DNA of 64,000 nt. Origin: SAR92 clade bacterium H921. Lineage in GTDB: Bacteria > Pseudomonadota > Gammaproteobacteria > Pseudomonadales > Porticoccaceae. This document shows positions 1 to 12,484 of the stretch, one piece after another. The stretch's first letter is position 1, and each line of letters opens with the position of its first letter. Location: NCBI GenBank assembly GCA_025153755.1, contig JAOALD010000003.1, positions 1-64,000 on the forward strand, written 5' to 3'. A model generated the notes under the pieces. That model was not told where the DNA came from and did not search any database. It worked only from the letters and a program-made list of their open reading frames with translations. Made by a program: the position numbers and the translations under genes.

Positions 1-178
1 CGGGCTATCTCCGATAGAGTATGAAAGACAATATTTTAACGAGACTGAAAAGTGTCTAGTTAACTAGTGGCGATTCATAGGGCTTAGGGCTACTTGCTGC
101 TTCCTTAGGATACTTATGGTTATTACTTAATAGATATACCTTTAAGGATTAATACTATTGTTAAACTCTTCGGTAAGT

Positions 179-1300
179 TTATCTAGCTTTTAACTTTTCA
201 TTAAAATCTACTAAATGTGGCTTCAATGCGGACTCCAGTCTAACCATGGAATCCGTCATAGTTTCTATCATCATAGGCCATTGCTCATCATCAAATACGT
301 TGCCATCAAAAGAGGCTTTGATACGACAGGCTCTCTTGCCATCAAGTCTCTCCCACGTCAATTGACCACCAAAGTCCTTCTCTATCTGAGATTTCAAGCC
401 AAACAACCTGTCGAAGATAAACTTGTTTTCCTCAGAGGCGCGATCTATGTATAACTCAGCACGACCATAAGACTTAGATACAACGAATACAAATCTAACC
501 CTAGAAATACCTGATCCTGCTCCAATGTAGTGGCCAGTCATAGGACTAATGTTACTGAATAGACTAGAGGCACTTGCATTCATCTTGGATAGCAATTGAG
601 ACCAGAACTGCTTTCTGACTATATGTCGATTTTTTAACTCAGTGTGAGAATCTGTTTCATCTTGGGCCTTGTCAGCCATCCCAATCATGTACTCTTCAGC
701 ATCTTGTGTAGGAATTATTTGCTCTACATTCAGGAAGAGTTCCTCACCCATAGCATAGGGTGTTGCGCGAAAGCACTGCATTCGTACTTTGTAGTTCATC
801 AACCACAAGACAGTGCTAGTCACCTCTTTTCTAAACTTAGCGGCAATTAGTATGATACGTTGAGATATACCTTTATTTAGCTGCATCTCCTCATAATCAA
901 CACCGTCCATAAAATCTACTAAGCGTTCCTGAGCATTTGCCCCCTGTTCATGACTATCCAAATAATCTTGAAAAATTTTGGTAATGTTTCCCTTAGTCAA
1001 ACCTGAGCAATAAGAAGCGTACTTCATTGCCTGCCATGTCACATCTTTTCCGGAGTCATCTAATTTATTCTCAATAATCACTAACGCTCCATTTTTATCA
1101 AGCGCTAACAGATCTAAACGTTCCTGAGTATCTTCAAATCCAGAGAATTCCTTTTGAATTATTAAAAGATCTTCCCCCAAGACATCTGGCTGTTTCGCGA
1201 TCCACTCTTGAAGGTGATCTCTTTCACGAAACCCTAATGAAGAAAAGGACATTCTTTTTAATTGCTGAATACTATTTGATGACTTGTTGATCTTATACAT
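179..1300 (-). CDS. DUF4268-type protein with PD-(D/E)XK nuclease-like N-terminus
   Basis: 373 residues. The N-terminal half carries a nuclease-fold signature: an acidic residue near 32, D63 in an RLDLLALD strand, and E77-x-K79 in VIIENKL, followed by a helix with WQAMKYASY. This is the PD-(D/E)XK arrangement of NucS-like and restriction-type domains. The C-terminal ~140 residues (QFWSQLL onward, with a strand-rich RVRFVFVVSKSYGRAELYI segment) resemble DUF4268, which is often fused to such domains. The role is not established; DNA cleavage or defence is possible by family. It stands alone at the left edge with about 290 bp of non-coding DNA upstream, in AT-rich accessory DNA next to a recombinase remnant. 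No clear Shine-Dalgarno sequence precedes the ATG, so the start is less sure than the frame. Confidence 0.7.
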   Translation of the reverse strand: MYKINKSSNSIQQLKRMSFSSLGFRERDHLQEWIAKQPDVLGEDLLIIQKEFSGFEDTQERLDLLALDKNGALVIIENKLDDSGKDVTWQAMKYASYCSGLTKGNITKIFQDYLDSHEQGANAQERLVDFMDGVDYEEMQLNKGISQRIILIAAKFRKEVTSTVLWLMNYKVRMQCFRATPYAMGEELFLNVEQIIPTQDAEEYMIGMADKAQDETDSHTELKNRHIVRKQFWSQLLSKMNASASSLFSNISPMTGHYIGAGSGISRVRFVFVVSKSYGRAELYIDRASEENKFIFDRLFGLKSQIEKDFGGQLTWERLDGKRACRIKASFDGNVFDDEQWPMMIETMTDSMVRLESALKPHLVDFNEKLKAR

Positions 1301-1587: not shown

Positions 1588-2184
1588 TCAGTCCATTAAC
1601 AGCGACATACCTGAATTAGGGACAAACTCATTATTAACATCTTTGCCCCAGTTTGATGCAATTATTGGGGCCCATGTTTTCATCAATTTGTTAAGTTGTG
1701 TGATTGCGCCCCTTGAGGTCAACTCCATGCTCCATAGGATCTTTGGGTTATCAGGTAGTGAGCTTGCTTCGTAGATATTTAACAAAAATACTCGTTCATA
1801 TTTCACTGAGCTGACAGTATGGCCGGGCGTATAACTGCTAGTGCCTGTTCCACTACAAACCCCTCCAGCACAAGACGCTGCGCTTGAAGAACTCCCTACA
1901 CCCGGTACAGATAAGGTTTCCACATGCCCATTTCCAATTTCATGGGCCCAAACTCCAATAACATAAGGTTCTTCACAACTAATTAGAAGTCCTTCTTTTT
2001 GTAATTCGGCTTTAAGCATATCATTTGAATTAAATGCTGAGGGCGAAGTTTTTGCCGGTTTGAGGCATATATTGTTGTTTTCGGGAAAAGAGTAAGCGAG
2101 CCTTGAGTTAACAAAATTACCCGGTACGAGGCTACTACATCCAGAAATGAAAAGAATTGTTACTAAAATTTTTATAAGTTTCAT
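1588..2184 (-). CDS. Predicted lipoprotein of unknown function
   Basis: 198 residues with a short basic N-terminus, a hydrophobic stretch and a lipobox ISGC, so Cys16 should be lipidated and the protein membrane-anchored. The central part is Ser/Gly/Cys rich (around residues 95-115, with two Cys that could form a disulphide). The C-terminal part alternates strands and ends in a helix with WAPIIASNWG. The plan (lipobox, then a compact domain with a conserved VFLLNIY-like strand) recalls small DUF4136-like lipoproteins, but I do not recognise the family. It is monocistronic, on the same strand as the metal operon but separated from it by the left copy of the 300-bp direct repeat. Confidence 0.6.
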   Translation of the reverse strand: MKLIKILVTILFISGCSSLVPGNFVNSRLAYSFPENNNICLKPAKTSPSAFNSNDMLKAELQKEGLLISCEEPYVIGVWAHEIGNGHVETLSVPGVGSSSSAASCAGGVCSGTGTSSYTPGHTVSSVKYERVFLLNIYEASSLPDNPKILWSMELTSRGAITQLNKLMKTWAPIIASNWGKDVNNEFVPNSGMSLLMD

Positions 2185-2382: not shown

Positions 2383-2679
2383 TAATGTATCTCCCCAGAT
2401 ACAGTAACAATCACAAGCACTCAGCAGCCCCCCCGGGCCCCTAAAGGCTACCCCAATGGAATACTCATGGACGCCTTGTGTGAGTCTGAGGTAGACAAAA
2501 TGGTAGACGTAAATGTGCCTTTGACAATGAACTGGAGGGGTGTCAACATCAGTAGACACAAGGATCAAGGGCATTACAGGTGCCTGCTTAGGGCAATGAC
2601 GGGAGGCCCCGGGCACCATAGATTCACGTAACTCGTTGATTTACTTGATTATTTATCAAATTGCATAGGTAGGGTAGAC
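2383..2679. repeat. Direct repeat, left copy (DR-L), 297 bp
   Basis: Colinear with 4422-4719 over its whole length with a single 1-nt gap and scattered substitutions (roughly 80-90 % identity by eye). It begins at TAATGTATCTCCCC and ends at AGGTAGGGTAGAC, where similarity stops abruptly. Inside it the heptamer GGTAGAC occurs at 2490 and 2502, and GGGTAGAC closes the block. The last base overlaps the stop codon of the CsoR-like gene. In the right copy the same end lies directly before the ATG of a recombinase fragment. That makes this a likely attachment/regulatory region of an integrative element, left behind when the metal operon was inserted or the element was rearranged. Confidence 0.85.
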
Positions 2680-2942
2680 TAGGCTCGCTTAAGTATTTTT
2701 ACTAATTCAGCGATTTTGATTTCGCTCTGGTCCTGGCTATTCAGAGAATCTCTGACACATTCTTCAATATGCTTTTCCAGTATCTTTGCCTCAACTGTGG
2801 CTATGGCTGATTTGGCGGCTTTAAGCTGATTGAGGATATCTATGCAGTACTGGCCCTCATTAACCATTTTGCCGATACCATTAATCTGCCCGGAAATACG
2901 GTTGATATTGGGAATCAATTTTTTGTGGCAGGGATGTGTCAT
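2679..2942 (-). CDS. CsoR/RcnR-family (DUF156) metal-sensing repressor
   Basis: 87 residues, the usual family length. The DUF156 pattern is complete: RISGQINGIGKM (15-26), YCIDILNQLKA (32-42), EKHIEECV (56-63). The metal-site residues C33, H58 and C62 give the Cys-His-Cys set of Cu(I)-binding CsoR rather than the His-rich Ni/Co set of RcnR; H3 and C5 at the N-terminus could contribute. Members are all-helical dimers of dimers that leave the operator when metal binds. It is the last gene of the four-gene metal operon, 9 bp after the MerT-like gene, and probably autoregulates through the ATACCC-N5-GGGTAT palindrome before the first gene. The inducer (Cu, Hg or other) cannot be fixed from sequence. 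Confidence 0.88.
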   Translation of the reverse strand: MTHPCHKKLIPNINRISGQINGIGKMVNEGQYCIDILNQLKAAKSAIATVEAKILEKHIEECVRDSLNSQDQSEIKIAELVKILKRA

Positions 2943-2951
2943 GGCTTCTAC

Positions 2952-3317
2952 TCAGATAAATTTGGGCACTATGTAAGTGAAAATGCTCGCGCAGATAAAG
3001 ATGCCTGTGGATATAGTATAAATCCTTCGCGAACGCTGTCTTATCTGTAAGCAGGCGCGACCTAGATCCGGGTCAGCAGGGCATGGCATTCTGGCTGTTT
3101 TATAGTTGACCATACCGGCTACCACGAGCATTACCAGTGCAAACAGGCTAATGGCTATTTTGTATTGGGACAGCACAATCAAAAAGGGGAATACGCTCAG
3201 CAGACTAGCAAAGCTGGCCCCAGCGCCCAAGGTGACAAAGAGTGCCGGTAGGGCGCAGCAGATCAATGTCGAAGTAGAGGCGAATAGTGAAAAGAAACTG
3301 GCTGCTCTTTCTTGCAT
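2952..3317 (-). CDS. MerT-like inner-membrane metal transporter
   Basis: 121 residues with three predicted membrane spans. The first contains a vicinal Cys pair (LICCALPALF), and the loop after span two carries a second Cys pair in a CPADPDLGRAC segment. This matches MerT, where the cysteine pair in the first helix accepts Hg(II) from MerP and a loop Cys pair passes it to the cytoplasm. It lies 1 bp after the periplasmic HMA-domain gene, consistent with a MerP-MerT relay. No merA or merR is present, and the operon has a CsoR-type regulator, so the metal may not be mercury. The family assignment rests on topology and Cys placement rather than strong identity. Confidence 0.7.
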   Translation of the reverse strand: MQERAASFFSLFASTSTLICCALPALFVTLGAGASFASLLSVFPFLIVLSQYKIAISLFALVMLVVAGMVNYKTARMPCPADPDLGRACLQIRQRSRRIYTISTGIFICASIFTYIVPKFI

Positions 3318-3318
3318 A

Positions 3319-3732
3319 TTATTTGCCTACGAACTGGATGGCCACGGTGTTTAGGCCGTTATTAAGAATATTTTGCTTAATACCAGCGCGGTTTATTTCT
3401 GTCTCTGGGGCGAAGGCCAGCAGGACTTTTCCTGAGGCCAGATCTACATCTATTTTGGTCACGGTGCTGTCTTTACCAAAGGTCTTTTCAATACCGCGGG
3501 CACAGAAGTCACAGACCATGCCCTGGACACTGATCACTACTATTTGATCCCCGAGAACGGCGTTAACGAAGTTATCGAAACGCTCGGCATCCACGCTGAG
3601 CTTTTGGCCATCGACCATGGTGTCGTGCAAATGGCTTTTGGGGGAATGCATATGTCCCATTTCATGGTGGGCGGCCTGAGTTGCTGTTGCAGTAAGTAAT
3701 AATGTTGCCAGTAAGAATTTATTCATAATCAT
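3319..3732 (-). CDS. Periplasmic MerP-like heavy-metal-associated (HMA) domain protein
   Basis: 137 residues. Signal peptide at 1-20 (FLLATLLLTATATQA, cleavage before AHHE). A His-rich linker follows (HHEMGHMHSPKSHLHD). Then comes an HMA fold of about 70 residues with the metal loop GMVCDFCARGIEK, in which the two Cys of CDFC chelate a soft metal. The extra ~45 residues between signal and HMA domain distinguish it from plain MerP (about 91 residues) and add histidines that could hold Cu or Zn. It is 10 bp after the outer-membrane protein gene and 1 bp before the MerT-like gene, so a periplasmic carrier between the two membranes is the natural role. Confidence 0.8.
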   Translation of the reverse strand: MIMNKFLLATLLLTATATQAAHHEMGHMHSPKSHLHDTMVDGQKLSVDAERFDNFVNAVLGDQIVVISVQGMVCDFCARGIEKTFGKDSTVTKIDVDLASGKVLLAFAPETEINRAGIKQNILNNGLNTVAIQFVGK

Positions 3733-3742
3733 CCATCCTCTA

Positions 3743-4342
3743 TTAGAATCTATACATCAAATGAATATCCCAGTCGGTTTTTTTGTGATAGCCGACTTCA
3801 ATCAAGCCACCACCTTTAAAAAACCGCAGCACAGGGTAGGTGATGCGCTTGTCGTCCAAGTCATCTTTTTTGCTCTCAATCATCAACCAAGTATGCAGGT
3901 CGCCGTAGGCACCCAGATAGGGGGCTACCCCTAGTTTTACCCTCTGCTCAAAAAGGTCATAGCCAATGCCTGAGACTTGTTTGGCGGAGAAACTGCCAAA
4001 CAGGCGCCGAGTCTCCCAGTCACCACTGAGTGAGTAAAAGTGGTTGTCGCTGCTATCGAGCCCAAAGCCGGTTTTTACGTACAGGTTGCGCTGAGAGGTA
4101 GCGGTATTCTTGCGGTTGATCAGATAGGTCAATCTGGCTGAGGGAAACGCTTCACCACTGATTTTATCTTTTTGATAATCCAAGCCTAATGAGTACTTGA
4201 TATTGGGCGTGAAGTGCCAGTAGATATTATCTGACTGTGCTCCGGAGTTAGCCATTAAGGTATGGCCTCCCACATAGGAGATGGGTCGGCTAATTGAGCT
4301 TGGGGCGACAAGCAGGGAGATAATAATGATCAGTGCTATCAT
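3743..4342 (-). CDS. Small outer-membrane beta-barrel protein of the metal operon
   Basis: 199 residues. A hydrophobic N-terminus (about 1-18) can serve as signal peptide although it lacks a basic residue. The rest consists of alternating amphipathic strands, and the protein ends in MYRF, the C-terminal aromatic typical of outer-membrane barrels. No known family recognised. It is the first gene of the metal operon and may let the metal cross, or sense it at, the outer membrane. Start problem: the ATG overlaps the predicted CsoR operator, and the -10 region ends only about 8 bp upstream, so translation would be leaderless. The next in-frame ATG (residue 30) has a GGAGG ten bases upstream but would remove the signal peptide. 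Confidence 0.6.
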   Translation of the reverse strand: MIALIIIISLLVAPSSISRPISYVGGHTLMANSGAQSDNIYWHFTPNIKYSLGLDYQKDKISGEAFPSARLTYLINRKNTATSQRNLYVKTGFGLDSSDNHFYSLSGDWETRRLFGSFSAKQVSGIGYDLFEQRVKLGVAPYLGAYGDLHTWLMIESKKDDLDDKRITYPVLRFFKGGGLIEVGYHKKTDWDIHLMYRF

Positions 4343-4378
4343 ACCCCCACAGGGTATATGAAATTAAGCTGTTGTCAA
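4341..4378 (-). promoter_or_regulatory. Promoter with CsoR-type operator of the metal operon
   Basis: On the minus strand a perfect TTGACA (-35, at 4373-4378) is followed after 16 bp by TACCCT (-10, 4351-4356). Over the -10 lies the palindrome ATACCC-CCACA-GGGTAT (4341-4357). ATACCC-N-GGGTAT is the operator type used by CsoR/RcnR (DUF156) repressors, one of which is encoded by the last gene of this operon. Repressor bound here would block RNA polymerase directly. The predicted transcription start falls at or next to the ATG of the first gene. Confidence 0.7.
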
Positions 4379-4421
4379 TGTAATTCCCTCCATTAGTAAC
4401 CGAGCTTTTAAAGTTAGTTTT

Positions 4422-4719
4422 TAATGTATCTCCCCAGATACAGTATCAATCACAAGAAACATAAAGCCTCCCCCGGGGCCTTAAAGGCTGCCCCAATGGA
4501 ATACTCACGGGTGCCTTCTGAGGGTTTGAGGTAGACAAAATGGTAGACGTAAATGTGCCTTTGACAATGCACTGGAGGGGTGTCAACATCAGTAAGCAAA
4601 AGGATCAAGGGCATTACAGGTGCCTACCTAGGGCAATGACGGGAGGCCCCGGGCACCATAGTTTCACGTAACCCATTGTTTTGCTTGTGTATTTACCAGA
4701 TTATATAGGTAGGGTAGAC
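4422..4719. repeat. Direct repeat, right copy (DR-R), 298 bp, abutting recombinase ATG
   Basis: Second copy of the 2383-2679 block. It ends AGGTAGGGTAGAC at 4719, two bases before the ATG of the integrase fragment, so the repeat is exactly the upstream region of that gene. The GGTAGAC heptamers are conserved here too, with the same spacing. The two copies differ at many scattered positions, so this is either an old duplication or two related elements using the same site. Confidence 0.85.
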
Positions 4720-4720
4720 A

Positions 4721-4999
4721 ATGCGGTATACACCAAAGCATGCTCAACACACATATACCAGACGTGATGTATATTACTTCTCTAGAGTAATTCCTAGTGA
4801 TTTGAAGCATCACTACATTAAGCCTCGTATTATTCAGAGCCTAAAAACCAAGTCAGCGTACAAGGCTGCAGTTGCTTCCAAGATATTGTTAGCCAAGCTA
4901 GATGATTACTGGTTAGGCTTGAGACTCAAACAAGACGATGTTCCTACATCTCATTTGCTGATCAGTGGTGCTACCGCCAATCAAATATCAATGGCATAA
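4721..4999 (+). pseudogene. Tyrosine recombinase (integrase) N-terminal fragment
   Basis: 92 residues. The start region YYFSRVIPSDLKHHY followed by RIIQSLKTKSAYKAAVASKILLAKLD (split here for length) is the N-terminal, DUF6538-like segment of phage-type integrases, which normally run to about 350-450 residues. The core-binding and catalytic domains (R-H-R-Y) are absent: the frame stops at 4999 and unrelated chromosomal DNA follows. The gene is therefore a remnant and cannot recombine DNA by itself. Its position immediately after DR-R ties the repeat family to integrase-driven insertion. Confidence 0.7.
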
Positions 5000-5117
5000 G
5001 ATACCTGTAACGTTGTCTTTGCTAATAGATGCGCCAGTAGCGGTTTAAATAAGCGCATCAAAAGTGGAGGTTTGGCAAGAAATTACGCTAAAATATTGGT
5101 CTTTCCCTGAGATAAAC

Positions 5118-5702
5118 ATGAAATACACGCTTTTTACGACTCCTGTAATAAGCCCAATATTACGAGTGATATCGAAAATTACGTTAAAAATCATTCGATG
5201 GCGGGTTGTTGGTAAGCTTCCTGAAGGGCAGGGCAAGTATGTTCTTATAGTTGCACCCCACACTTCAAATTGGGATTTTTTTCTGTTTGTTTTGGCGGTA
5301 TCAGTGTTGCGTCTCAAGCCCAGTGTACTGATTAAGAGTACTCTTTTTATAGGGCCTCTGGGTTGGTTTTTGCGTTATAGCGGCGCTATTCCGGTTAATC
5401 GACTTCAAGCGAGCTCATTAGTAGATTACATTGCCGGCATCTATGCAGAGCGCGAAGAGTTCGTCTTAATTATCACTCCTGAGGGTACCCGAAGCGCAAA
5501 CCCTCGATGGAAACAAGGATTCCATCATGTAGCAACAGCCGCCAAGGTACCAATACTAGTTGTCTATGTAGATAGCACTATCAAGACCATTGGAATTGAG
5601 GGTTTAATGGAGCCCTCTGGGGACGTTGATGAGGATTTGCGCCAGCTCAAAAAGTTTTATGACACTAAAAGTGGTTTGAGACCAAAAAATTACTCCTCCT
5701 AG
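5118..5702 (+). CDS. 1-acyl-sn-glycerol-3-phosphate acyltransferase-like (PlsC family)
   Basis: About 195 residues from the ATG at 5118; a GTG at 5064 in the same frame would add 18 residues. Acyltransferase block I is HTSNWDF (H-x4-D, the catalytic dyad), and block III is TPEGTRS, with a GAIPVNR-type block between them. These motifs define the PlsC/LPLAT fold, which transfers an acyl chain to lysophosphatidate or a related acceptor at the inner membrane. The protein is shorter than housekeeping PlsC (about 240) and fits the small 'glycerol acyltransferase' group seen as extra copies in marine bacteria. It appears monocistronic between the recombinase remnant and the Zur operon; the acceptor is unknown. 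Confidence 0.8.
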   Translation: MKYTLFTTPVISPILRVISKITLKIIRWRVVGKLPEGQGKYVLIVAPHTSNWDFFLFVLAVSVLRLKPSVLIKSTLFIGPLGWFLRYSGAIPVNRLQASSLVDYIAGIYAEREEFVLIITPEGTRSANPRWKQGFHHVATAAKVPILVVYVDSTIKTIGIEGLMEPSGDVDEDLRQLKKFYDTKSGLRPKNYSS

Positions 5703-5890
5703 TGCTAGCTCATTATTTTAATACGCGGCTGTGTAGCACCTTAGGCCTCTGGGCTCTGATTTTTAGATGTTCTTGTTATCGCCTATATCCATTTTTGAAT
5801 TCTAGCGTCATAGGTTTTATGCCCAAGTTATAGGCTAGGGAGGACTGCTTCATCTTATTGCAAGATTACCCAGAAGTGTGAGCATAAGAT

Positions 5891-5907
5891 ATGATATACT
5901 GTATCAT
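5891..5907 (+). promoter_or_regulatory. Zur box upstream of zur operon
   Basis: ATGATATACTGTATCAT is an inverted repeat (ATGATA-N5-TATCAT) that agrees with the gammaproteobacterial Zur consensus ATGTTATANTATAACAT at nearly every position. It contains a -10-like TATACT. It lies about 165 bp upstream of zur and the zinc genes, so Zur bound to zinc should repress the whole operon, including itself. Confidence 0.8.
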
Positions 5908-6071
5908 GGATGCTTTGACAGGCACGGTGTTTTATCGCTTAAGGTTAGGGTGAACTTATTGGATATTTTTCCCAATATAGAAAAAATCAATCTGATGTGG
6001 CTCACTGATACTGAGCAGGGTGCTTTAGATCAGACCTCCACACTCGATATCATCGCATTGAGGTAATGCCT

Positions 6072-6533
6072 ATGAGTAATATACAAACAGTGATTAATCA
6101 TGCTGAGATTAGCTGTAAATCCCATGGTGCAAAATTAACTAATAAGCGTAAGCAAGTACTTTCGGGTTTATTACAATCCGATAAAGCCAGGTCAGCCTAT
6201 GAATTGGTCGAATACTGCAGAGAAGAATTTGGTGAAACGCTGCCAGCTATGTCGGTTTACCGTATTCTTGATTTTTTACAAGATGAATCTTTAGTTCACA
6301 AGTTAAAGTTGGCTAATAAATATATCGCCTGCTCCCATATAACCTGTGATCACAGTCATGGCATTGTGCAATTTTTGATTTGTGGTAATTGCCAAAGTGT
6401 AAAGGAAATTACTGTAGATAAAACATCTATAAATAATTTAAGAGATACTATTAAAAAGGCGGGATTTCATTTGCTCAGTCCTCAATTAGAAATAAGTTGT
6501 CTTTGCCATAATTGTAAACATCAAGCCGTTTAA
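6072..6533 (+). CDS. zur: Zinc uptake regulator Zur (Fur family)
   Basis: About 153 residues from the ATG at 6072, preferred over the ATG at 6066 because the GAGG at 6059 is then 9 bp away. The winged-helix part includes the recognition segment MSVYRILDFL. The dimerisation part carries the two structural-zinc Cys pairs, CGNC near residue 115 and CHNC near the C-terminus, as in Zur and Fur. The HITCDHSHG stretch supplies sensory-site ligands. Zur represses zinc-acquisition and zinc-sparing genes when zinc is sufficient. It opens an operon of zinc-related genes behind a Zur box, which supports Zur over Fur or PerR. Confidence 0.9.
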   Translation: MSNIQTVINHAEISCKSHGAKLTNKRKQVLSGLLQSDKARSAYELVEYCREEFGETLPAMSVYRILDFLQDESLVHKLKLANKYIACSHITCDHSHGIVQFLICGNCQSVKEITVDKTSINNLRDTIKKAGFHLLSPQLEISCLCHNCKHQAV

Positions 6534-6554
6534 TCCTTACCTGAATAGTTAATA

Positions 6555-6953
6555 ATGAAAAACATACAAGCTCTATCAGACAAGTCAGCAATCACGCTAT
6601 CCTTTCTTTGCATAGTTCACTGCCTGGCACTGCCCGTAGTGGTTGTCCTATTGCCTGTTATCGCATCATACAATTTGCAGGATGAAGTCGTGCATTGGTG
6701 GATGTTATTCGCAGTCGTTCCCATAAGTCTTTTTGCGTTAACCATGGGCTGTAAAAAGCATAAAAATTATAATGTTATGGCGTTTGGACTTCTCGGTTTA
6801 GTTATTTTAATTGTCACGCCTTTTTTGGGTCATGACCTTCTTGGGGAGTCAGGAGAGCGTTTAATGACTACCATTGGGACCCTTGTCATTGCTGGAGGGC
6901 ACGTAATAAACCAGCGGCTATGTAGGCGCTCAGATTGCCAATGTAGTTCGTAG
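6555..6953 (+). CDS. MerC-domain inner-membrane protein
   Basis: 132 residues with four predicted membrane helices. The first helix holds LCIVHCLALPV, the C-x3-HC motif of MerC-type proteins, and the C-terminus ends with RRSDCQCSS, another Cys cluster. MerC in Tn21 imports Hg(II). MerC-like genes beside zur and COG0523 are recurrent in marine proteobacteria and are more likely involved in zinc or another divalent metal; that role is inferred from context. It is 21 bp after zur and 13 bp before the hisI paralogue, clearly cotranscribed. Confidence 0.8.
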   Translation: MKNIQALSDKSAITLSFLCIVHCLALPVVVVLLPVIASYNLQDEVVHWWMLFAVVPISLFALTMGCKKHKNYNVMAFGLLGLVILIVTPFLGHDLLGESGERLMTTIGTLVIAGGHVINQRLCRRSDCQCSS

Positions 6954-6966
6954 TCACGATTTTCTT

Positions 6967-7398
6967 ATGCAAAACATATTTTTTGAAACTATTGAAAGTT
7001 TAGAGGACGGACAGTCCCTAGTTCTGCAATCCCTAATTGATGAATTGAACTTTACCGACAATGGTCTTATTCCTGTTATCACTCAAGACGTCTCCAGCAA
7101 AGATGTCTTGATGTTAGCCTGGATGAATAGGGAGGCAATAAATACAACGCTGTCTACGGGCCTGATGACGTACTGGTCGCGCAGTCGGCGAACGCTTTGG
7201 GTAAAAGGCGAGACTAGCGGTAACGGTCAGGTATTAGCCACCATGCAGATTGACTGTGATGGGGATGCTTTATTATGCATGGTCAGTCAAACTGGCGTTG
7301 CCTGTCATACAGGCCAAGATAATTGTTTTTATTTTAAGGTGGACAGAGAAAACATGTCAGCGTCGGTACAAGGGTCTCCAAAGAATCATTCACAATGA
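6967..7398 (+). CDS. hisI: Phosphoribosyl-AMP cyclohydrolase (HisI) paralogue in Zur operon
   Basis: 143 residues. The PRA-CH core is intact: VLMLAWMN, the TYWSRSRRTLW substrate loop, and the metal motif DCDGDALL ... ACHTG ... NCFYF supplying the three zinc-ligand cysteines and the Mg-binding aspartates. The enzyme hydrolyses phosphoribosyl-AMP in histidine biosynthesis. It is not with other his genes but inside a zinc-starvation operon, followed with a 4-bp overlap by a COG0523 GTPase. Duplicates of zinc-dependent enzymes under Zur control (hisI, folE2 and others) are an established pattern. Here the zinc cysteines are retained, so a working model is that the COG0523 partner metallates this copy when zinc is scarce. 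Confidence 0.88.
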   Translation: MQNIFFETIESLEDGQSLVLQSLIDELNFTDNGLIPVITQDVSSKDVLMLAWMNREAINTTLSTGLMTYWSRSRRTLWVKGETSGNGQVLATMQIDCDGDALLCMVSQTGVACHTGQDNCFYFKVDRENMSASVQGSPKNHSQ

Positions 7399-8396
7399 CA
7401 GAATTACTTAATAGAATTGAAGCTGTTCCGACTAATATTATTACTGGTTTTTTGGGGGTAGGTAAAACATCGGCGATTTTACATCTTCTACAATCAAAGC
7501 CAACTAATCAGCGCTGGGCGATTCTGGTCAATGAGTTTGGCGAGATTGGTGTGGATGGAAGTCTGTTCCAAGACAAGCATTCTGAAGACGGTAATATCTT
7601 TATTCGAGAGGTGCCAGGTGGTTGTATGTGCTGTGCTGCAGGTCTACCAATGCAGGTAGCACTCAATCAGTTGCTCGCGCGAGCTCAACCAGATCGCTTA
7701 TTAATTGAGCCAACAGGCCTAGGGCACCCGGTTGAAGTGCTCGATGTTTTGACGGCAGAGCACTATTCTAAGGTTCTTTCAATTGAGAAAATTATCACTT
7801 TGGTTGATGCGCGGAATCTAAGCGATCCACGCTACACCGAGAACGCAACATTTAATCAGCAAATTGCCATAGCAGATGTGATTGTTGGTAACAAAAATGA
7901 CCTTTATCAGTACCAAGATAGAGTCCAGCTTGAGGATTACGTGAAGTCAAAATCTCAGCCGGATACAAAGATCGTATTTACTGAGCAGGGCCAATTAAGC
8001 TTAGATCTCTTAGCGGGAGTAACGACTGCATCTGTCGGCTCACATCATAGTCACGATCATCCAGTAGGCAGCGAGCAACTTAGTTTTGCGACCATGCCGT
8101 TACCTGAGTCAGGTTATATAAAAGCAGTTAATAAAGCACAGGGGTTTCATAGCATAGGTTGGCGTTTTGACTCTAGTAAAGTATTTAACCGACAGGCCTT
8201 GTTTGTGTTTTTAAGTGGTGTCGAAGCCATAAGGGTGAAGGCAGTCTTTATTACTCAAAGTGGTGTGTTCGGTTACAACATCACCTCTGACGCTCTCACC
8301 GAAGTGGAAATGGATGATTGTTTTGAGAGTCGCATTGATATTATTACCAGTGACATCGATAGTCAGTGGGAAGCGCAGTTGTTTGCATGTCTTTAA
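7395..8396 (+). CDS. COG0523 GTPase, putative zinc metallochaperone
   Basis: 333 residues. Walker A GFLGVGKTS near residue 18, the metal motif CMCC (GGCMCCAAG) near residue 78, and NKNDL for guanine specificity. A His-rich loop (SHHSHDH) around 218 separates the GTPase from the C-terminal CobW_C domain. COG0523 proteins deliver metal to client enzymes using GTP; the CxCC motif binds zinc. The start overlaps hisI by 4 bp (ATGA), implying translational coupling and suggesting HisI as client. Last gene of the Zur operon. No cobalamin genes are nearby, so CobW is unlikely. Confidence 0.9.
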   Translation: MTELLNRIEAVPTNIITGFLGVGKTSAILHLLQSKPTNQRWAILVNEFGEIGVDGSLFQDKHSEDGNIFIREVPGGCMCCAAGLPMQVALNQLLARAQPDRLLIEPTGLGHPVEVLDVLTAEHYSKVLSIEKIITLVDARNLSDPRYTENATFNQQIAIADVIVGNKNDLYQYQDRVQLEDYVKSKSQPDTKIVFTEQGQLSLDLLAGVTTASVGSHHSHDHPVGSEQLSFATMPLPESGYIKAVNKAQGFHSIGWRFDSSKVFNRQALFVFLSGVEAIRVKAVFITQSGVFGYNITSDALTEVEMDDCFESRIDIITSDIDSQWEAQLFACL

Positions 8397-8442
8397 ATAG
8401 TTCTTTGCTAGGCCTTCGAAATCTATTGTGAATAGACGGCTG

Positions 8443-8784
8443 TTATTGCTCATAAGCTTCATAGCTGGCCATCTCTAACGCATAAGCGGCGGTAGCTAGA
8501 TCATTCTTCACCAGAGATGTTTTTAGAACACCGGATACCCAAAACCACTAGTAGAGGGCGTCAATCTCTACTCCTTTGGCATATTTTACCTGAATCTTTT
8601 GGTTCGGTGCTGGCGGCGGCATAGGTAGGCAGGCCCCAAAGTAGGGTACTAAGAAAAACTCCGTTATTACCTGTTGGTCATCAAATTCTAAAGGAACAAT
8701 AAATCCTGAAATGCTGAGGGTGCGGCCGTCCATCTCAGGCTTTATGTTCGTTGACGCCAGAGCATGTTGATATCGGTCTGCCAT
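8443..8784 (-). pseudogene. DUF3299 protein gene interrupted by an in-frame amber codon
   Basis: The open part (8548-8784, 78 residues) reads MDGRTLSISGFIVPLEFD, then EFFLVPYFGACLPMPPPAP, the DUF3299 signature. After EIDALY comes TAG (8548-8550). Reading through in the same frame continues with family-like sequence (WFWVSGVLKTSLVKN, then TAAYALEM and an AYEQ end) to TAA at 8443-8445. The gene is thus split by a single nonsense codon, perhaps CAG to TAG. The 5' end also looks shortened: no Shine-Dalgarno and no signal peptide before the ATG. DUF3299 genes commonly travel with zinc-uptake or ABC genes, which fits the neighbouring Zur operon; this link is from memory. Confidence 0.75.
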
Positions 8785-8912
8785 ACTATCGATAATGGCA
8801 TTTAACCAGCCCCGTCATCGCGATTGATATAACACCACAATGAAAAGTTAGCTGTCCTCGGCTACTTCAGCCTTTAAATAGATAAAGTTGATGTCTCAGT
8901 TGATATTCTGTG

Positions 8913-8935
8913 TGTTGCACAAAAGCGGTGCAACA
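8913..8935 (+). promoter_or_regulatory. NtrC-type binding palindrome
   Basis: TGTTGCAC-N7-GTGCAACA is a perfect 8+8 inverted repeat whose core TGCAC-N7-GTGCA equals the classical NtrC site layout (TGCACY...RGTGCA). It sits about 100 bp upstream of a sigma-54 promoter, the normal distance for an enhancer-bound activator. Nitrogen-limitation control of the FNT/cyanase operon is the direct reading. Confidence 0.75.
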
Positions 8936-9023
8936 AAGCGGAATTATTCGTCGGTTATGCTTCATTAAAAGTCATTAAAGAAAAATCTTGGCCGAAATAG
9001 GCCGCTATTTAGCATTTTAAAAG

Positions 9024-9040
9024 TTGGCATCCTTCTTGCA
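9024..9040 (+). promoter_or_regulatory. Sigma-54 (-24/-12) promoter
   Basis: TTGGCATCCTTCTTGCA matches YTGGCAC-N5-TTGCW at all but one consensus position, with GG and GC exactly 10 bp apart. Transcription should start near 9051, giving a leader of about 45 nt before the FNT gene that contains an early AGGAGG far from the ATG. Together with the NtrC palindrome it defines a nitrogen-regulated promoter. Confidence 0.82.
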
Positions 9041-9096
9041 AAGCCGTAGGAGGAAACATTATCCACCCACCAACTTTTTATTTAGAGATCTAAATT

Positions 9097-9909
9097 ATGG
9101 CTTATATAGAACCCAGTGAATTTGTGACAAAAATGGTTGACGCCGGAGAATCAAAACTCTACATGTCAACGAAAGATACCCTAGTACGTGCGTTTATGGC
9201 AGGCGCAATTCTCGGATTGGCGGCTTTCTTTGCGATTAGCGTTATTACCATGACAGGCAATCTATTAGTGGGTTCGCTCCTATTTCCTGTTGGATTTATT
9301 ATGCTTTATCTAATGAAGTTTGATTTGCTTACTGGCGTTTTTACGTTGGTACCATTATCACTTTTAGATAAAAGACCAGGAGCTACAGTGCCCAATATGC
9401 TTCGTAACTGGGGCCTAGTATTTGTAGGTAACTTTGCTGGTGCGCTTACGGTAGCTTTTTTTGCTTCTTTCATCCTGACCTATGGATATAACACCGATGG
9501 TGGGGCTCTGGCAGCTAAGGTTGGCAGTATTGGTGAGTCAAGAACTCTGGGTTATCAAGAGCACGGCACAGCTGGCTGGTTCACTATCTTTATTCGCGGC
9601 ATGTTATGTAACTGGATGGTATCAATGGGTGTAGTTGGAGCTATGATCTCTACCTCTGCTGGCAGTAAAATGGCAGCGATGTGGATGCCTGTAATGTTGT
9701 TCTTCTTCATGGGTTTTGAGCATTCTATTGTAAACATGTTTCTATTTCCGTTTTCCATGATCATGGGCGGAGAGTTCACTATTTTTGACTACCTAGTGTG
9801 GAACGAAATTCCAACTGTATTGGGCAACCTGTTTGGTGGACTGTTTTTGGTTGGACTGCCACTTTATTGGACCCACGTAAGAACTAACGCAGAACGCAAA
9901 CTAACTTAA
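9097..9909 (+). CDS. Formate/nitrite transporter (FNT) family channel
   Basis: 270 residues with six predicted membrane helices. FNT landmarks are present: the GNFAGAL segment, the RGMLCNWMV helix start and GFEHSIVNM, where the His is the central pore residue that protonates the permeating anion. FNT pentamers pass small monovalent anions such as formate, nitrite or hydrosulphide. Because the next gene is cyanase and the promoter is NtrC/sigma-54 type, the natural substrate is likely cyanate, or nitrite as nitrogen source; this is inference. A hairpin directly after the stop codon may protect or separate the message from cynS. Confidence 0.9.
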   Translation: MAYIEPSEFVTKMVDAGESKLYMSTKDTLVRAFMAGAILGLAAFFAISVITMTGNLLVGSLLFPVGFIMLYLMKFDLLTGVFTLVPLSLLDKRPGATVPNMLRNWGLVFVGNFAGALTVAFFASFILTYGYNTDGGALAAKVGSIGESRTLGYQEHGTAGWFTIFIRGMLCNWMVSMGVVGAMISTSAGSKMAAMWMPVMLFFFMGFEHSIVNMFLFPFSMIMGGEFTIFDYLVWNEIPTVLGNLFGGLFLVGLPLYWTHVRTNAERKLT

Positions 9910-9916
9910 TAACAAC

Positions 9917-9948
9917 AGCCACCCTTACTAACTCAGTAGGGGTGGCTT
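9917..9948 (+). terminator. Intercistronic hairpin between FNT gene and cynS
   Basis: AGCCACCC and GGGTGGCT pair perfectly, and the stem can extend inward through TACT/AGTA around a 5-nt loop. No T-run follows, so this is more likely a partial terminator or RNA-stabilising hairpin that sets different levels of channel and cyanase than a full stop. Confidence 0.55.
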
Positions 9949-9988
9949 AAGAGCGACTAATTTCTATATCAATTTAAGGTGTTAAATA

Positions 9989-10429
9989 ATGAACAAAGAA
10001 GCAATGTCAGATTTAATTATTTCGACAAAGTCAGAGAAAGGATTGACCTGGGAAAAAATAGCGACCGACCTATCTATGTCACCGGTTTGGCTAACATCTG
10101 TATGTCTAGGTATGAACAGCGCACCGCAGGACAAGGCGTTGGCAATCTCAGACTATCTGGGCTTGGGGGAAGAGGTAACTGCTGCACTAGCAGCTTTTCC
10201 GACTAAGATATGGGATCAGGCTGTACCGACCGATCCACTTGTTTATCGCCTCTATGAAGTAGTTGGAGTTTATGGCGACACACTCAAAGAAGTTATTCAA
10301 GAAAAGTTTGGTGACGGAATTATGAGCGCTATTGACTTCTCAATGGAAGTGGACAAAATTGAGAATCCCAAAGGTGATCGCGTTCTACTGACCCTTAACG
10401 GCAAATTCCTGCCCTATGCGTCCTGGTAA
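9989..10429 (+). CDS. cynS: Cyanate hydratase (cyanase)
   Basis: 146 residues; E. coli CynS has 156. Cyanase decomposes cyanate with bicarbonate to ammonia and two CO2, allowing cyanate as nitrogen source and detoxifying it. The catalytic triad is visible: R87 and E90 in YRLYE and S113 in IMSAIDFSME. The N-terminal helical DNA-binding-like domain (SEKGLTWEKIATDLSMSPVW) and the C-terminal beta domain ending in NGKFLPYASW are complete. An AAGGTG precedes the ATG. No cynR or cynT is present; control appears to come from the upstream NtrC/sigma-54 promoter. Confidence 0.96.
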   Translation: MNKEAMSDLIISTKSEKGLTWEKIATDLSMSPVWLTSVCLGMNSAPQDKALAISDYLGLGEEVTAALAAFPTKIWDQAVPTDPLVYRLYEVVGVYGDTLKEVIQEKFGDGIMSAIDFSMEVDKIENPKGDRVLLTLNGKFLPYASW

Positions 10430-10456
10430 GAAAACGTGGAACCTATTGGTTAAAAT

Positions 10457-10483
10457 ATCGGCTGCCCAGCTTTGGGTAGCCGA
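10457..10483 (+). terminator. Hairpin between cynS and the PP2C-kinase gene
   Basis: ATCGGCTGCCC and GGGTAGCCGAT pair except for one mismatch around a short loop. No T-run follows. The downstream start codon is only 24 bp away, so read-through is expected and the hairpin may attenuate the regulatory third gene. Confidence 0.5.
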
Positions 10484-10506
10484 TTATAAAGGCTAGCTAA
10501 ATCAAA

Positions 10507-12243
10507 ATGAACAAAGCATTATCCGTTACCTTAGGCGCATATAGTGATGCTGGTATAAAATCTATTAATCAGGATTTCTTTGGTGCCTGTATTCCTAGTG
10601 AGCCGCTGTTACATAGTAAAGGTATCGCGCTTGCTATTGCCGATGGCATCAGCAGTAGTGATGTCAGTCAGGTTGCAAGTCAGACATCGGTTGCCAGCTT
10701 CTTAGACGACTATTACTGTACCCCAGATGTGTGGTCAGTTAAGAACTCAGTCCTCAAAGTACTTAGTGCTACTAACTCTTGGTTATTCTCTCAGACCCAC
10801 AATAGCCCCCATAGATTTAATAAAGAAAAAGGTTATATCTGCACCTTCGGTAGTCTTGTTATTAAGTCACAGACGGCCCATGTTTTTCACTGCGGTGATT
10901 CACGTATATATCATCACTCTACCAATGGACTAGAATGTCTGACTCAGGATCACCGGCATGTCATTACTGAACAGTCGAGTTATCTGACAAGGGCACTGGG
11001 AATAAACAATACTGTTGACATTGACTACACCAGTCGGTCAGTTGAACAGGGCGATTACTTTATTCTATGCACCGATGGTATCCATGAATTTGTTTCCAAT
11101 AAACAACTTTGCAACTGGCTAAGTGATAGCGATGTCAATGCTACTAACGATGATCTGGACGCCCTGGCTAAGACTATTGCCCAAGCCGCATTAGATGCTG
11201 GTAGTGATGATAACATCAGTCTACAAATTGTTCGTTTAGATCAGTTGCCAGATAAATCAGCTACTGAAATAGGTCGAGCTGTAAGTCATTTGCCCCTGGC
11301 ACCACTAATAAAGCCCCGAATGGATTTTGAGGGTTACAGGATAATCAGACCAATTTATATTAGTAGTCGTAGCCATGTTTTTCTAGCCCAGGCTAACGAG
11401 TCAGGTGAAAGTGTAGCCTTAAAGTTTCCGTCTGCTGAGCTTAAAAAGGACACTGAGTATTTAGAAAGTCTCCTGCGTGAAGACTGGATCGCTCAGCGCA
11501 TTGATAATCCCCATGTATTAAAAGCGAAACCCTCGGTACAAAAGAAAAATTATCTCTATACAGTTACCGAATATATTGACGGCCAGAATCTAATGCAATG
11601 GATGATCGATAATCCCACTCCGTCATTAGAAGAGGTACGTAAAATAATTGAACAAATCGCTAAAGGCCTTCAGGCATTCCATCGTCGTGAAATGATCCAT
11701 CAAGATCTGCGGCCACAAAATATTATGATAGATTCATTGGGCACAGTAAAAATTATCGATTTTGGCAGTACCAAGGTGGCGGGTATTTCAGACATTCATG
11801 CCAATAATGAGGGCATAGTTGGTACGCTACAGTATTCGTCGCCAGAATATTTTGTTAATGATCCTATTACATCACGAGTGGATATTTTCTCGCTCGGAGT
11901 TATTGCCTATCAAATGCTATCGGGAAGATTCCCTTATGGTCAAAAGGTATCTAGGGCTAAAAGTGTTTTTGAACAACGTAAATTAATTTATTTATCGCTA
12001 AATAGTCACGGAATAAAGGTGCCCGGTTGGGTTGAAGAAAGTCTGCGCAAGGCCGTAAGCATAAGTCCTCTAAAGCGATACAGCGAAGTCTCTGAATTTA
12101 TCTATGATATGAGAGTCCCTAATAAAACGTTTACGGCCAAAGAACAGCTACCTCTGATGGAAAGTAACCCTCTTGCATTCTGGCGAGGATTATCTTTAAT
12201 CCTGGTGCTGATTATTATTTTGCAGATTATTTTTTTGAATTAA
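10507..12243 (+). CDS. Bifunctional PP2C phosphatase - Ser/Thr protein kinase, membrane-anchored
   Basis: 578 residues. Residues 1-245 are a PP2C phosphatase with metal-binding acids in NQD (21-23), ADGIS (D46), GDSR (D131) and SDDNIS near 237. Residues about 275-535 are a Hanks-type kinase with the VALKF lysine, catalytic loop HQDLRPQN (398-405), DFGS and SPEY; the usual R of HRD is Q, so activation-loop control may be weak. A single helix near 556-577 (ISL-type hydrophobic tail) anchors it. The same two-domain protein accompanies nitrate-assimilation genes in pseudomonads (the PA1782 type), which agrees with this cyanate/FNT operon. It probably tunes transport or assimilation by reversible phosphorylation; the target is unknown. 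Confidence 0.9.
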   Translation: MNKALSVTLGAYSDAGIKSINQDFFGACIPSEPLLHSKGIALAIADGISSSDVSQVASQTSVASFLDDYYCTPDVWSVKNSVLKVLSATNSWLFSQTHNSPHRFNKEKGYICTFGSLVIKSQTAHVFHCGDSRIYHHSTNGLECLTQDHRHVITEQSSYLTRALGINNTVDIDYTSRSVEQGDYFILCTDGIHEFVSNKQLCNWLSDSDVNATNDDLDALAKTIAQAALDAGSDDNISLQIVRLDQLPDKSATEIGRAVSHLPLAPLIKPRMDFEGYRIIRPIYISSRSHVFLAQANESGESVALKFPSAELKKDTEYLESLLREDWIAQRIDNPHVLKAKPSVQKKNYLYTVTEYIDGQNLMQWMIDNPTPSLEEVRKIIEQIAKGLQAFHRREMIHQDLRPQNIMIDSLGTVKIIDFGSTKVAGISDIHANNEGIVGTLQYSSPEYFVNDPITSRVDIFSLGVIAYQMLSGRFPYGQKVSRAKSVFEQRKLIYLSLNSHGIKVPGWVEESLRKAVSISPLKRYSEVSEFIYDMRVPNKTFTAKEQLPLMESNPLAFWRGLSLILVLIIILQIIFLN

Positions 12244-12484
12244 TTCCGATCAGGTAGACTTTTAGCTGTACAGGTAAGTTGAGTAGATTTACAGCGAACG
12301 TTTTGTGGCTGCAACTACATGATAATTTTTGCCTAGGTCCATGCCTGTTGTAACGAGATTCTCAAACAAGAGCCTCGCCAGCATAGAGGCATCTATTGAG
12401 ACTAGGCTGATCTCGCAGGCCGGCACTGGCAAAAACTGTCGCTGGTTTAGAGTGATAAATACGAATGTTAATATCGGTAGCTTT

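Follow-up and report, generated by a model that had tools for sequence, protein, structure and literature searches.

At the left end of a 64,000-nucleotide stretch of DNA from SAR92 clade bacterium H921 (contig JAOALD010000003.1, positions 1 to 64,000; hereafter the window), a four-gene metal operon is flanked by two direct copies of a block of about 300 bp, and the right-hand copy is followed by the beginning of a gene for a DUF6538 tyrosine integrase (int). Our comparison with related genomes suggests that the blocks are attachment sites of this integrase (attP) and that the operon is a small element, lacking int, stacked among others that target a tRNA-Leu(UAA) gene. Unless stated otherwise, genome counts refer to 50 genomes of the window's genus.

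Two direct repeats around a metal operon

BLAST aligned positions 2382-2679 with 4421-4719 at 88.0% identity (299 columns, 35 mismatches, 1 gap, E = 1.5e-108), MAFFT and repeat finding gave the same result, and the similarity of the two blocks is far above chance expectation. A first-pass annotation, made from the sequence without database searches, had described two colinear copies ending at the same base, as this alignment confirms; both close with AGGGTAGAC (2671-2679 on the left, 4711-4719 on the right). Its account of the borders needs adjustment. It placed the right end two bases before the int start codon, and we find only one base (A, 4720) between that end and the ATG at 4721. On the left the block does touch the CsoR-like gene, more precisely with C 2679, which begins CTA, the stop codon of this gene on the reverse strand. 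Each block divides into four segments (Table 1), for which the two copies agree at 50 of 62 positions (end motif), 146 of 160 (P arm), 14 of 14 (core) and 50 of 61 (P' arm).

Table 1. Features at the left end of the window. Both end motifs are among the 21 training copies of model R1.
Feature	Coordinates	Strand	Basis and remarks
Insertion sequence end (conserved end 52-77)	1-77	.	Contig starts inside it; pattern search; insertion sequence by our own reading
DUF4268 protein	179-1300	-	Open reading frame (ORF); Pfam E 7.2e-32
Lipoprotein-like protein	1588-2184	-	ORF; lipoprotein by eye; no Pfam family
End motif, copy 1	2384-2445	+	Palindrome GTATCTCCCCAGATAC, then AGTAACAATCACAAG and a C-rich run; model R1 E 2.7e-18
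P arm, attP copy 1	2446-2604	+	GGTAGAC at 2490-2496 and 2502-2508; putative arm sites
Core, copy 1, GGCCCCGGGCACCA	2605-2618	+	Exact match to 3' end of tRNA-Leu(UAA)
P' arm (int leader), copy 1, ending GGTAGGGTAGAC	2619-2679	+	No int behind; alignment to leader + int references stops at 2679
Metal cassette, four genes	2679-4390	-	ORFs, Pfam, NCBIfam (every NCBIfam match below cut-off)
CsoR/RcnR-family repressor	2679-2942	-	Pfam Trns_repr_metal E 4.4e-25
MerT-like membrane protein	2952-3317	-	Pfam MerT below cut-off
HMA-domain protein	3319-3732	-	Pfam HMA, score exactly at cut-off
199-aa protein, perhaps outer-membrane	3743-4342	-	No Pfam family
End motif, copy 2	4423-4484	+	Model R1 E 3.0e-14
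P arm, attP copy 2	4485-4644	+	GGTAGAC at 4530-4536 and 4542-4548
Core, copy 2 (tRNA-Leu(UAA) 3' end)	4645-4658	+	Exact match; alignment to the copy on contig C8 begins here
P' arm (int leader), copy 2	4659-4719	+	Core + P' arm 76/76 identical to the C8 copy
5' remnant of DUF6538 tyrosine integrase, about 87 homologous codons	4721-4999	+	Pfam DUF6538 E 3.8e-17; homology to intact int stops at about 4982
Acyltransferase, Zur/Fur-like, MerC, HisI-like and CobW-like genes	5064-8396	+	Behind the array, probable island members; Pfam (acyltransferase, FUR, MerC), NCBIfam below cut-off (Zur, CobW), HisI by eye

The 14-base core GGCCCCGGGCACCA occurs exactly twice in the window (0.30 occurrences expected with up to two mismatches) and is the 3' end of the tRNA-Leu(UAA) gene of the same genome (L008:6313-6399). 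The last 80 bases of the block have one further copy in this genome, near the end of contig C8, where tRNA-Leu(UAA), core, P' arm and int follow one another directly; the int frame there is 245 codons long and stops at an apparent insertion sequence. Over 338 nt, the end of the right block plus the int remnant (4645-4982) shares 99.1% identity with the copy on C8. Contig C8 thus combines a core that is a tRNA 3' end with an int beside that same tRNA, as in a tRNA-targeting element. The catalytic part of the integrase is present in an intact relative, locus L043 (DUF6538 plus Phage_integrase, PF00589, E = 9e-15), of which the window keeps only the N-terminal remnant.

Because the core is a tRNA 3' end and recurs at tRNA-Leu on C8 with the same P' arm and int, the block has the layout of an attP, and each copy can be read as a full attP of a DUF6538 integrase, running from the end motif through P arm, core and P' arm to the int start codon. 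This bears out the first-pass proposal that the repeat is the attachment region of an integrase family. Its suggestion that the copies stem from different related elements of one attachment type also holds up: the P' arm of the right copy matches that on C8 at 60 of 60 positions and that of the left copy at 48 of 60. Since the two differ in this way, the window would contain junctions of at least three elements: a left one, possibly with the DUF4268 and lipoprotein-like genes (179-2184) as remains of its body; the metal element; and a right one reduced to 87 int codons.

We put at about 80% the probability that elements targeting tRNA-Leu(UAA) have accreted into an array of which the window holds a part, and in which the metal operon is an int-less, attP-ended cassette that was probably mobilised in trans. 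This figure covers the attachment-site and accretion reading as a whole, with mobility in trans as its least certain step. Each block would be a junction at which the right end of one element (end motif and P arm) meets, across the core, the left end (P' arm) of its neighbour. The metal element, of about 2 kb, would be bounded on the left by a P' arm and on the right by an end motif with P arm, int having been lost or never carried. A DUF6538 integrase would bind the GGTAGAC pairs as arm-type sites and act in trans on these ends, catalysing excision and integration. Cargo would often be joined to the attachment module at the conserved end motif, so that the same cargo could occur with the module of another tRNA.

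Two direct copies surrounding the operon might instead reflect a simple duplication or transposition of the operon with its flanking repeat, unrelated to integration. The repeats are 12% diverged and contain a tRNA 3' end, the same block lies behind tRNA genes in other genomes, and C8 carries the tRNA-Leu/int locus, all of which make such an origin extremely improbable.

Integrase remnants, the cassette and the end motif in related genomes

The first-pass annotation had made its proposal depend on the block recurring elsewhere with an integrase beside it. In a DNA search of 94 genomes, 50 of them from the window's genus, pieces of the block were found in 23, all of that genus, and a comparison with a plasmid collection gave no match. 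Blocks without an intact int do exist (G027, G020, G003 and G024), but each retains int codons behind the P' arm, so that they read as derivatives of the same element. The number of codons retained is about 0 in the left window copy, 6 in G027, 14 in G020, 20 in G003, 30 in G024 and 87 in the right window copy, a list that omits the partial int pieces of G032, G016 C73, G026, G007, G011 and G043 (contig ends or more distant copies). The varied break points indicate independent deletions rather than a switch at the start codon, the break at the ATG being simply the zero-codon case. The idea of a modular element that exchanges its cargo exactly at the int start codon, put forward in the first-pass annotation, is favoured by the window itself, where the two copies extend exactly to the int ATG and to the stop codon of the CsoR-like gene. 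Five other truncated copies that break about 6 to 87 codons into int, and a different left border of the operon in two other genomes (see below), leave it very little probability.

The element in G027 is itself int-less and lies at tRNA-Leu, in the order tRNA, core, P' arm, about 6 int codons, about 2 kb of other cargo, end motif, P arm and core. We obtained the tRNA-Leu(UAA) locus from 34 genomes and compared 18 flanks: in 6 the P' arm follows the tRNA gene immediately, and the other 12 show no resemblance to any other flank over up to 200 nt. This mixture of shared P' arms and unique flanks fits tRNA-Leu(UAA) as an integration hot spot.

Matches to the operon's HMA protein occur in 17 genomes, counting the window's own, and for 8 of the remaining 16 loci we compared the cassette at the DNA level. 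The G022 copy shares 93% identity with window 2679-4381 and has tRNA-Arg(ACG) on one side and an 18-base fragment of the same tRNA on the other. The G013 copy, 91-92% identical over window 2679-3696 and 3794-4453, has at its end a weak match to the end motif (E = 0.0056), beyond which come arm repeats of the Ser type and tRNA-Ser(GGA). The left border in both is CTGCCC|TAGGC, without a P' arm of the window type, and no int was found between the ends of the cassette in either genome. The same cargo thus rides the attachment modules of three tRNA types, Leu, Arg and Ser. Because the uvrC genes of G022 and G013 are only 76% identical to that of the window's genome, the 91-93% identity of the cassette indicates that it moved horizontally. 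Cargo meets end motif in the same way in the window and in G013, but the sequence beyond the motif is not the same, so that the motif is probably where cargo and attachment module are joined.

Elsewhere the operon is less similar (72-81% in G019, G028, G004 and G038; 67-68% in G015 and G007). A common gene, which we guess to be a porin, lies on one side of it in G019, G028 and G004, and an SMP-30-like sequence (named by our own reading) on the other side in G019, G004 and G038; these common flanking genes suggest the ancestral chromosomal place of the operon. At locus L116 (771-3165; G038 C8) a fragment of an SMP-30-like gene (by eye) directly adjoins an end motif, with the metal operon behind it, in what looks like a chromosomal stretch captured beside the motif.

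A sequence model of the end motif (A3, R1), built from 21 copies, gave 60 matches in 25 genomes (E up to 0.01). Among 293 genomes drawn from the order, five matched (E up to 0.001): four from the genus and a fifth from the same family. We tested the 43 motif copies in the fetched loci for the 3' ends of Leu, Arg, Ser or Met isoacceptor tRNAs: an exact 11-nt tRNA 3' end lies within 450 bp on the outer side of 24 copies and on the inner side of none, and random windows of the same loci contained one in 119 of 2000 cases. The arm repeat varies with the target (GGTAGAC, GCTACAAA, GACTACAAA and GTACACACA types; motif copies at tRNA-Met have none of the four), and the conserved end motif therefore combines with at least four arm-repeat types. 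The palindrome of the motif is seemingly compensated in L116 and L117 and imperfect in many other copies, and we make no claim of selection on it.

Further loci show the motif in other company. L112 (G047 C10:128000-147000) has four end motifs in one orientation at 8114-13637, about 1.7-2.1 kb apart, each following same-strand genes and without arms or tRNA cores, in what looks like a cassette array; its genes encode amidohydrolases and a small HNH-like protein (by eye) and a sulfotransferase/hydroxylase fusion (Pfam). In two genomes a flagellin with an inserted FG-GAP repeat domain adjoins an end motif, at L114 (9067-11478; Pfam) and at L057 (4562-6940).

The insertion sequence end has six pattern matches in the window's genome, each no more than 80 bases from where a contig ends. 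Two of them are C7:52-77 and C8:147196-147221, and we infer that contigs C8 and C7 are adjacent. Several observations weigh against the accretion array. The two contigs are not joined in the assembly, and with this end at six contig ends other joins are possible. Beyond the two blocks, the window has a single core match, with 2 mismatches (at 11291), so that the array lacks a closing attR there. We found no intact int of the DUF6538 family in the window's genome, and the array may therefore be stranded now. The G022 cassette lacks the end motif, which cannot be the sole joint, and 19 of the 43 motif copies have no outer tRNA 3' end within 450 bp, among them copies that are truncated or at contig ends and motifs in arrays lacking arms. 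Finally, loss of int after integration would yield an identical structure.

A rival possibility is that the operon was never mobile without int: an autonomous element, in tandem between two others, would have lost int and most of its body by deletion, leaving the operon as a cis-mobilizable element formed on the spot. Such decay in place shares the attachment-site reading and differs from ours only on mobility in trans; the odds of the two are not exclusive. It would account for int remnants of many lengths in related loci, for a P' arm/operon join with zero int codons, which could be a random deletion, and for the insertion sequence ends nearby. Against it, the same operon with the same left end, and with no int found between its ends, stands at two other tRNA genes in two other genomes, at an identity far above that of uvrC. 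We judge decay in place possible, if somewhat improbable, and prefer mobilisation in trans, which suggests how this clade could move single operons between tRNA sites with a minimum of machinery, namely an end motif, a target-specific attachment module and an integrase from elsewhere.

The island at tRNA-Leu probably extends well beyond the array. Genes behind tRNA-Leu in G019 match window positions 16.3-23.3 kb in the same order, so that the first ~16 kb of the window are probably a variable island at this tRNA, which probably includes the acyltransferase and zinc-type genes at 5.1-8.4 kb. Homologues behind tRNA-Leu occur in G040 (acyltransferase) and G018 (Fur and CobW). In three genomes, genes of the Zur/Fur-like, MerC and CobW-like kinds are found close to end motifs or to the island (window 6066-8396, L122 5527-7837 and L044 3385-5465), and two of the three also have a HisI-like gene there.

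Integrase-bearing relatives

Matches to int occur in 15 genomes. In the main subfamily, nine loci cover both ends of int, and in eight of them int is bracketed by inverted copies of the tRNA 3' end and P' arm that are 94-100% identical. The numbers of identical positions are 80 of 80 (both G039 C2 and G044 C2), 72 of 74 (G022), 74 of 74 (G029), 82 of 82 (G039 C4), 89 of 89 (G008, at tRNA-Ser(GCT)), 37 of 37 (G044 C88, up to the contig end after 37 bases) and 60 of 64 (94%; G035, at tRNA-Phe, with a frame-broken int). At the ninth locus, G024 C28, there is no P' arm match behind int, and the contig ends 185 bp after int. Behind the 3' half of int that is present at G007 C74, none of seven P' arm sequences matches. 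A second integrase subfamily (29-32% similar) has no such repeat at the two of its four loci that were covered, G038 C9 and G040 C155 (G022 C39 and G016 C77 were left out). In all eight bracketed loci int starts beside the tRNA end (tRNA-like in G039 C4), and this uniform orientation speaks against frequent inversion while integrated.

Near-perfect inverted attachment half-sites around an integrase gene were unexpected, and they directly predict isomers of an excised circle. In seven of the eight elements the repeat arms on either side of int share 97-100% identity, and in the one with the broken int 94%. Between elements, in contrast, the P' arms of G022, G029, G039 C2, G044 C2 and G044 C88 agree with one another at 48-58 of 60 positions (the inverted copies of G039 and G044 C2 are not part of this comparison). 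Such a difference would be expected if the two arms of an element recombine.

The two complete elements, G039 C2 and C4, contain in order an inverted P' arm, an inverted core with P arm, the body and a direct P arm. The second repeat thus formed aligns over 247 columns at 96.4% identity in G039 C2 and over 262 columns at 99.2% in G039 C4, and in the latter an extra gene lies between int and the inverted P' arm. At loci L043 (7464-7790, 12400-12640) and L230 (8973-9297, 4148-4409) inverted repeats surround both int and the body, and the two sets create an internal inverted attP, so that an excised circle would carry two inverted attP blocks. The P arms of L043 (7532-7778 and 12396-12640) end in different tRNA-like cores, an Arg type inside and a Leu-like one at the far end (by eye), as if the element held two target specificities. 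The main cargo of L230 (4550-8023) is a 1157-aa protein that is collagen-like by eye.

These features raise the possibility that the intact parents form a new class of element built like the yeast 2-micron circle, with two inverted attP blocks of about 300 bp separating int from the rest. By recombining the two sites of its own element, Int could flip the circle during replication and so amplify it, and could also exchange attachment specificity and shed int-less cargo cassettes such as the metal operon. The agreement of the arms within elements is in keeping with this proposal. We nevertheless hold it unlikely, since int faces the same way relative to the target in all eight bracketed loci, which gives no sign of frequent inversion while integrated, no gene for replication is proven, and the second subfamily lacks the repeats.

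A conserved protein of about 410 aa is encoded in several element bodies (L118 10455-11678, L045 7605-8861, L043 9424-10671), and short fragments of its C-terminal part occur at distances of 0.2 to about 4 kb from motif copies in G022, G038, G040 and G048, with others in the window's own genome at C8:21160 and C8:30317. A resemblance to family A DNA polymerases, noted by eye, was dropped because true PolA proteins of the group, compared with it by profile, matched at a probability of only 0.1%. Pfam and NCBIfam gave no match, the best match in the Protein Data Bank had E = 0.088, and the L118 copy matches phrog_4756, a family of unknown function. It is adjoined by a fusion of an HNH endonuclease with a HIT hydrolase (L118 11900-12907, by Pfam; L045 6429-7415).

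The elements could also be phage satellites, in which a helper phage would recognise the end motif for packaging and the cassettes would travel in virions. One motif common to elements with different arm repeats and targets is what a helper-recognised site would look like, the 410-aa protein has its phrog_4756 match, and the HNH-HIT protein matches phrog_4581 (terminase small subunit; E = 9.5e-9), although through its HNH stretch and ranked below many HNH endonuclease families. Three exact motif patterns, however, had 0 matches in IMG/VR; a search able to detect only close relatives gave none there for the 410-aa protein and a single match for int (26%, query residues 49-196). Among the matches listed for nine proteins compared with PHROGs (25 of the 41 for the HNH-HIT protein), no packaging or capsid family appears apart from the HNH match. 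Matches in viral collections are thus sparse and lend this idea little support; we consider it unlikely.

Relation to known mobile elements

Our literature search, with most subscription journals outside its coverage, found no paper on such elements in this clade, on DUF6538, or on an int flanked by inverted repeats in a 2-micron context. In the sources we could consult in part, three systems each match in some respects only. Tycheposons of Prochlorococcus and Methylophilaceae (4-200 kb; PMC10872708) are likewise marine, tRNA-linked and variable in cargo and use a tyrosine recombinase, whereas a common end motif and inverted repeats bracketing int are not mentioned for them in the parts of that source consulted. 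Strand-biased circularizing integrative elements (SE; core genes intA-tfp-intB-srap, median 15.7 kb; PMC10214605) are gammaproteobacterial integrative elements described there as putatively non-mobilizable; the elements seen here differ in having one DUF6538 integrase and tRNA targets, and a single int lies within the element in the ORF lists of both L043 and L230, which were not searched for tfp and srap. Integron gene-cassette arrays and clusters of attC sites lacking integron integrases (CALIN; PMC11389934) resemble L112 in being arrays of small cassettes with a conserved site after each and no integrase. Here, in contrast, the site does not look attC-like by inspection, the cores are tRNA 3' ends and the integrase is a DUF6538 phage-type enzyme, which scored 22 of 220 bits, far below cut-off, against the NCBIfam model that includes integron integrases.

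The yeast 2-micron plasmid, with Flp/FRT and 599-bp inverted repeats (PMC6594588, as far as consulted), resembles the circle deduced for the excised G039 elements, in which two inverted blocks of recombinase sites would part the recombinase gene from the rest. The elements described here are bacterial, integrate at tRNA genes and have blocks of ~300-325 bp, and their circle, inversion and amplification are hypothetical. Islander elements, tRNA-targeting genomic islands with tyrosine integrases (PMC4383910), share, in the portion of that work consulted, an int beside a tRNA 3' end with the intact tRNA on one side and a tRNA fragment at the far end; most intact relatives here differ in bracketing int with an inverted core and P' arm, and the two complete ones in holding an inverted internal attP.

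The metal element itself appears closest to the cis-mobilizable elements (CIMEs) known from tandem accretion of integrative and conjugative or mobilizable elements, for example in Streptococcus thermophilus, which lack int, keep their attachment ends and stand in tandem with an int-bearing relative (PMC5704250, consulted in part). No transfer genes were noticed by eye in the ORF lists of the relatives, to which relaxase and conjugation models were not applied. Two features set the metal cassette apart from CIMEs: it is only about 2 kb long and it recurs at other tRNA genes with other attachment modules. In having no int between 2679 and 4423, in retaining a P' arm and a P arm, and in sharing one target with a related int-bearing element, it would nonetheless fit the definition of a CIME by structure, stacked by accretion.

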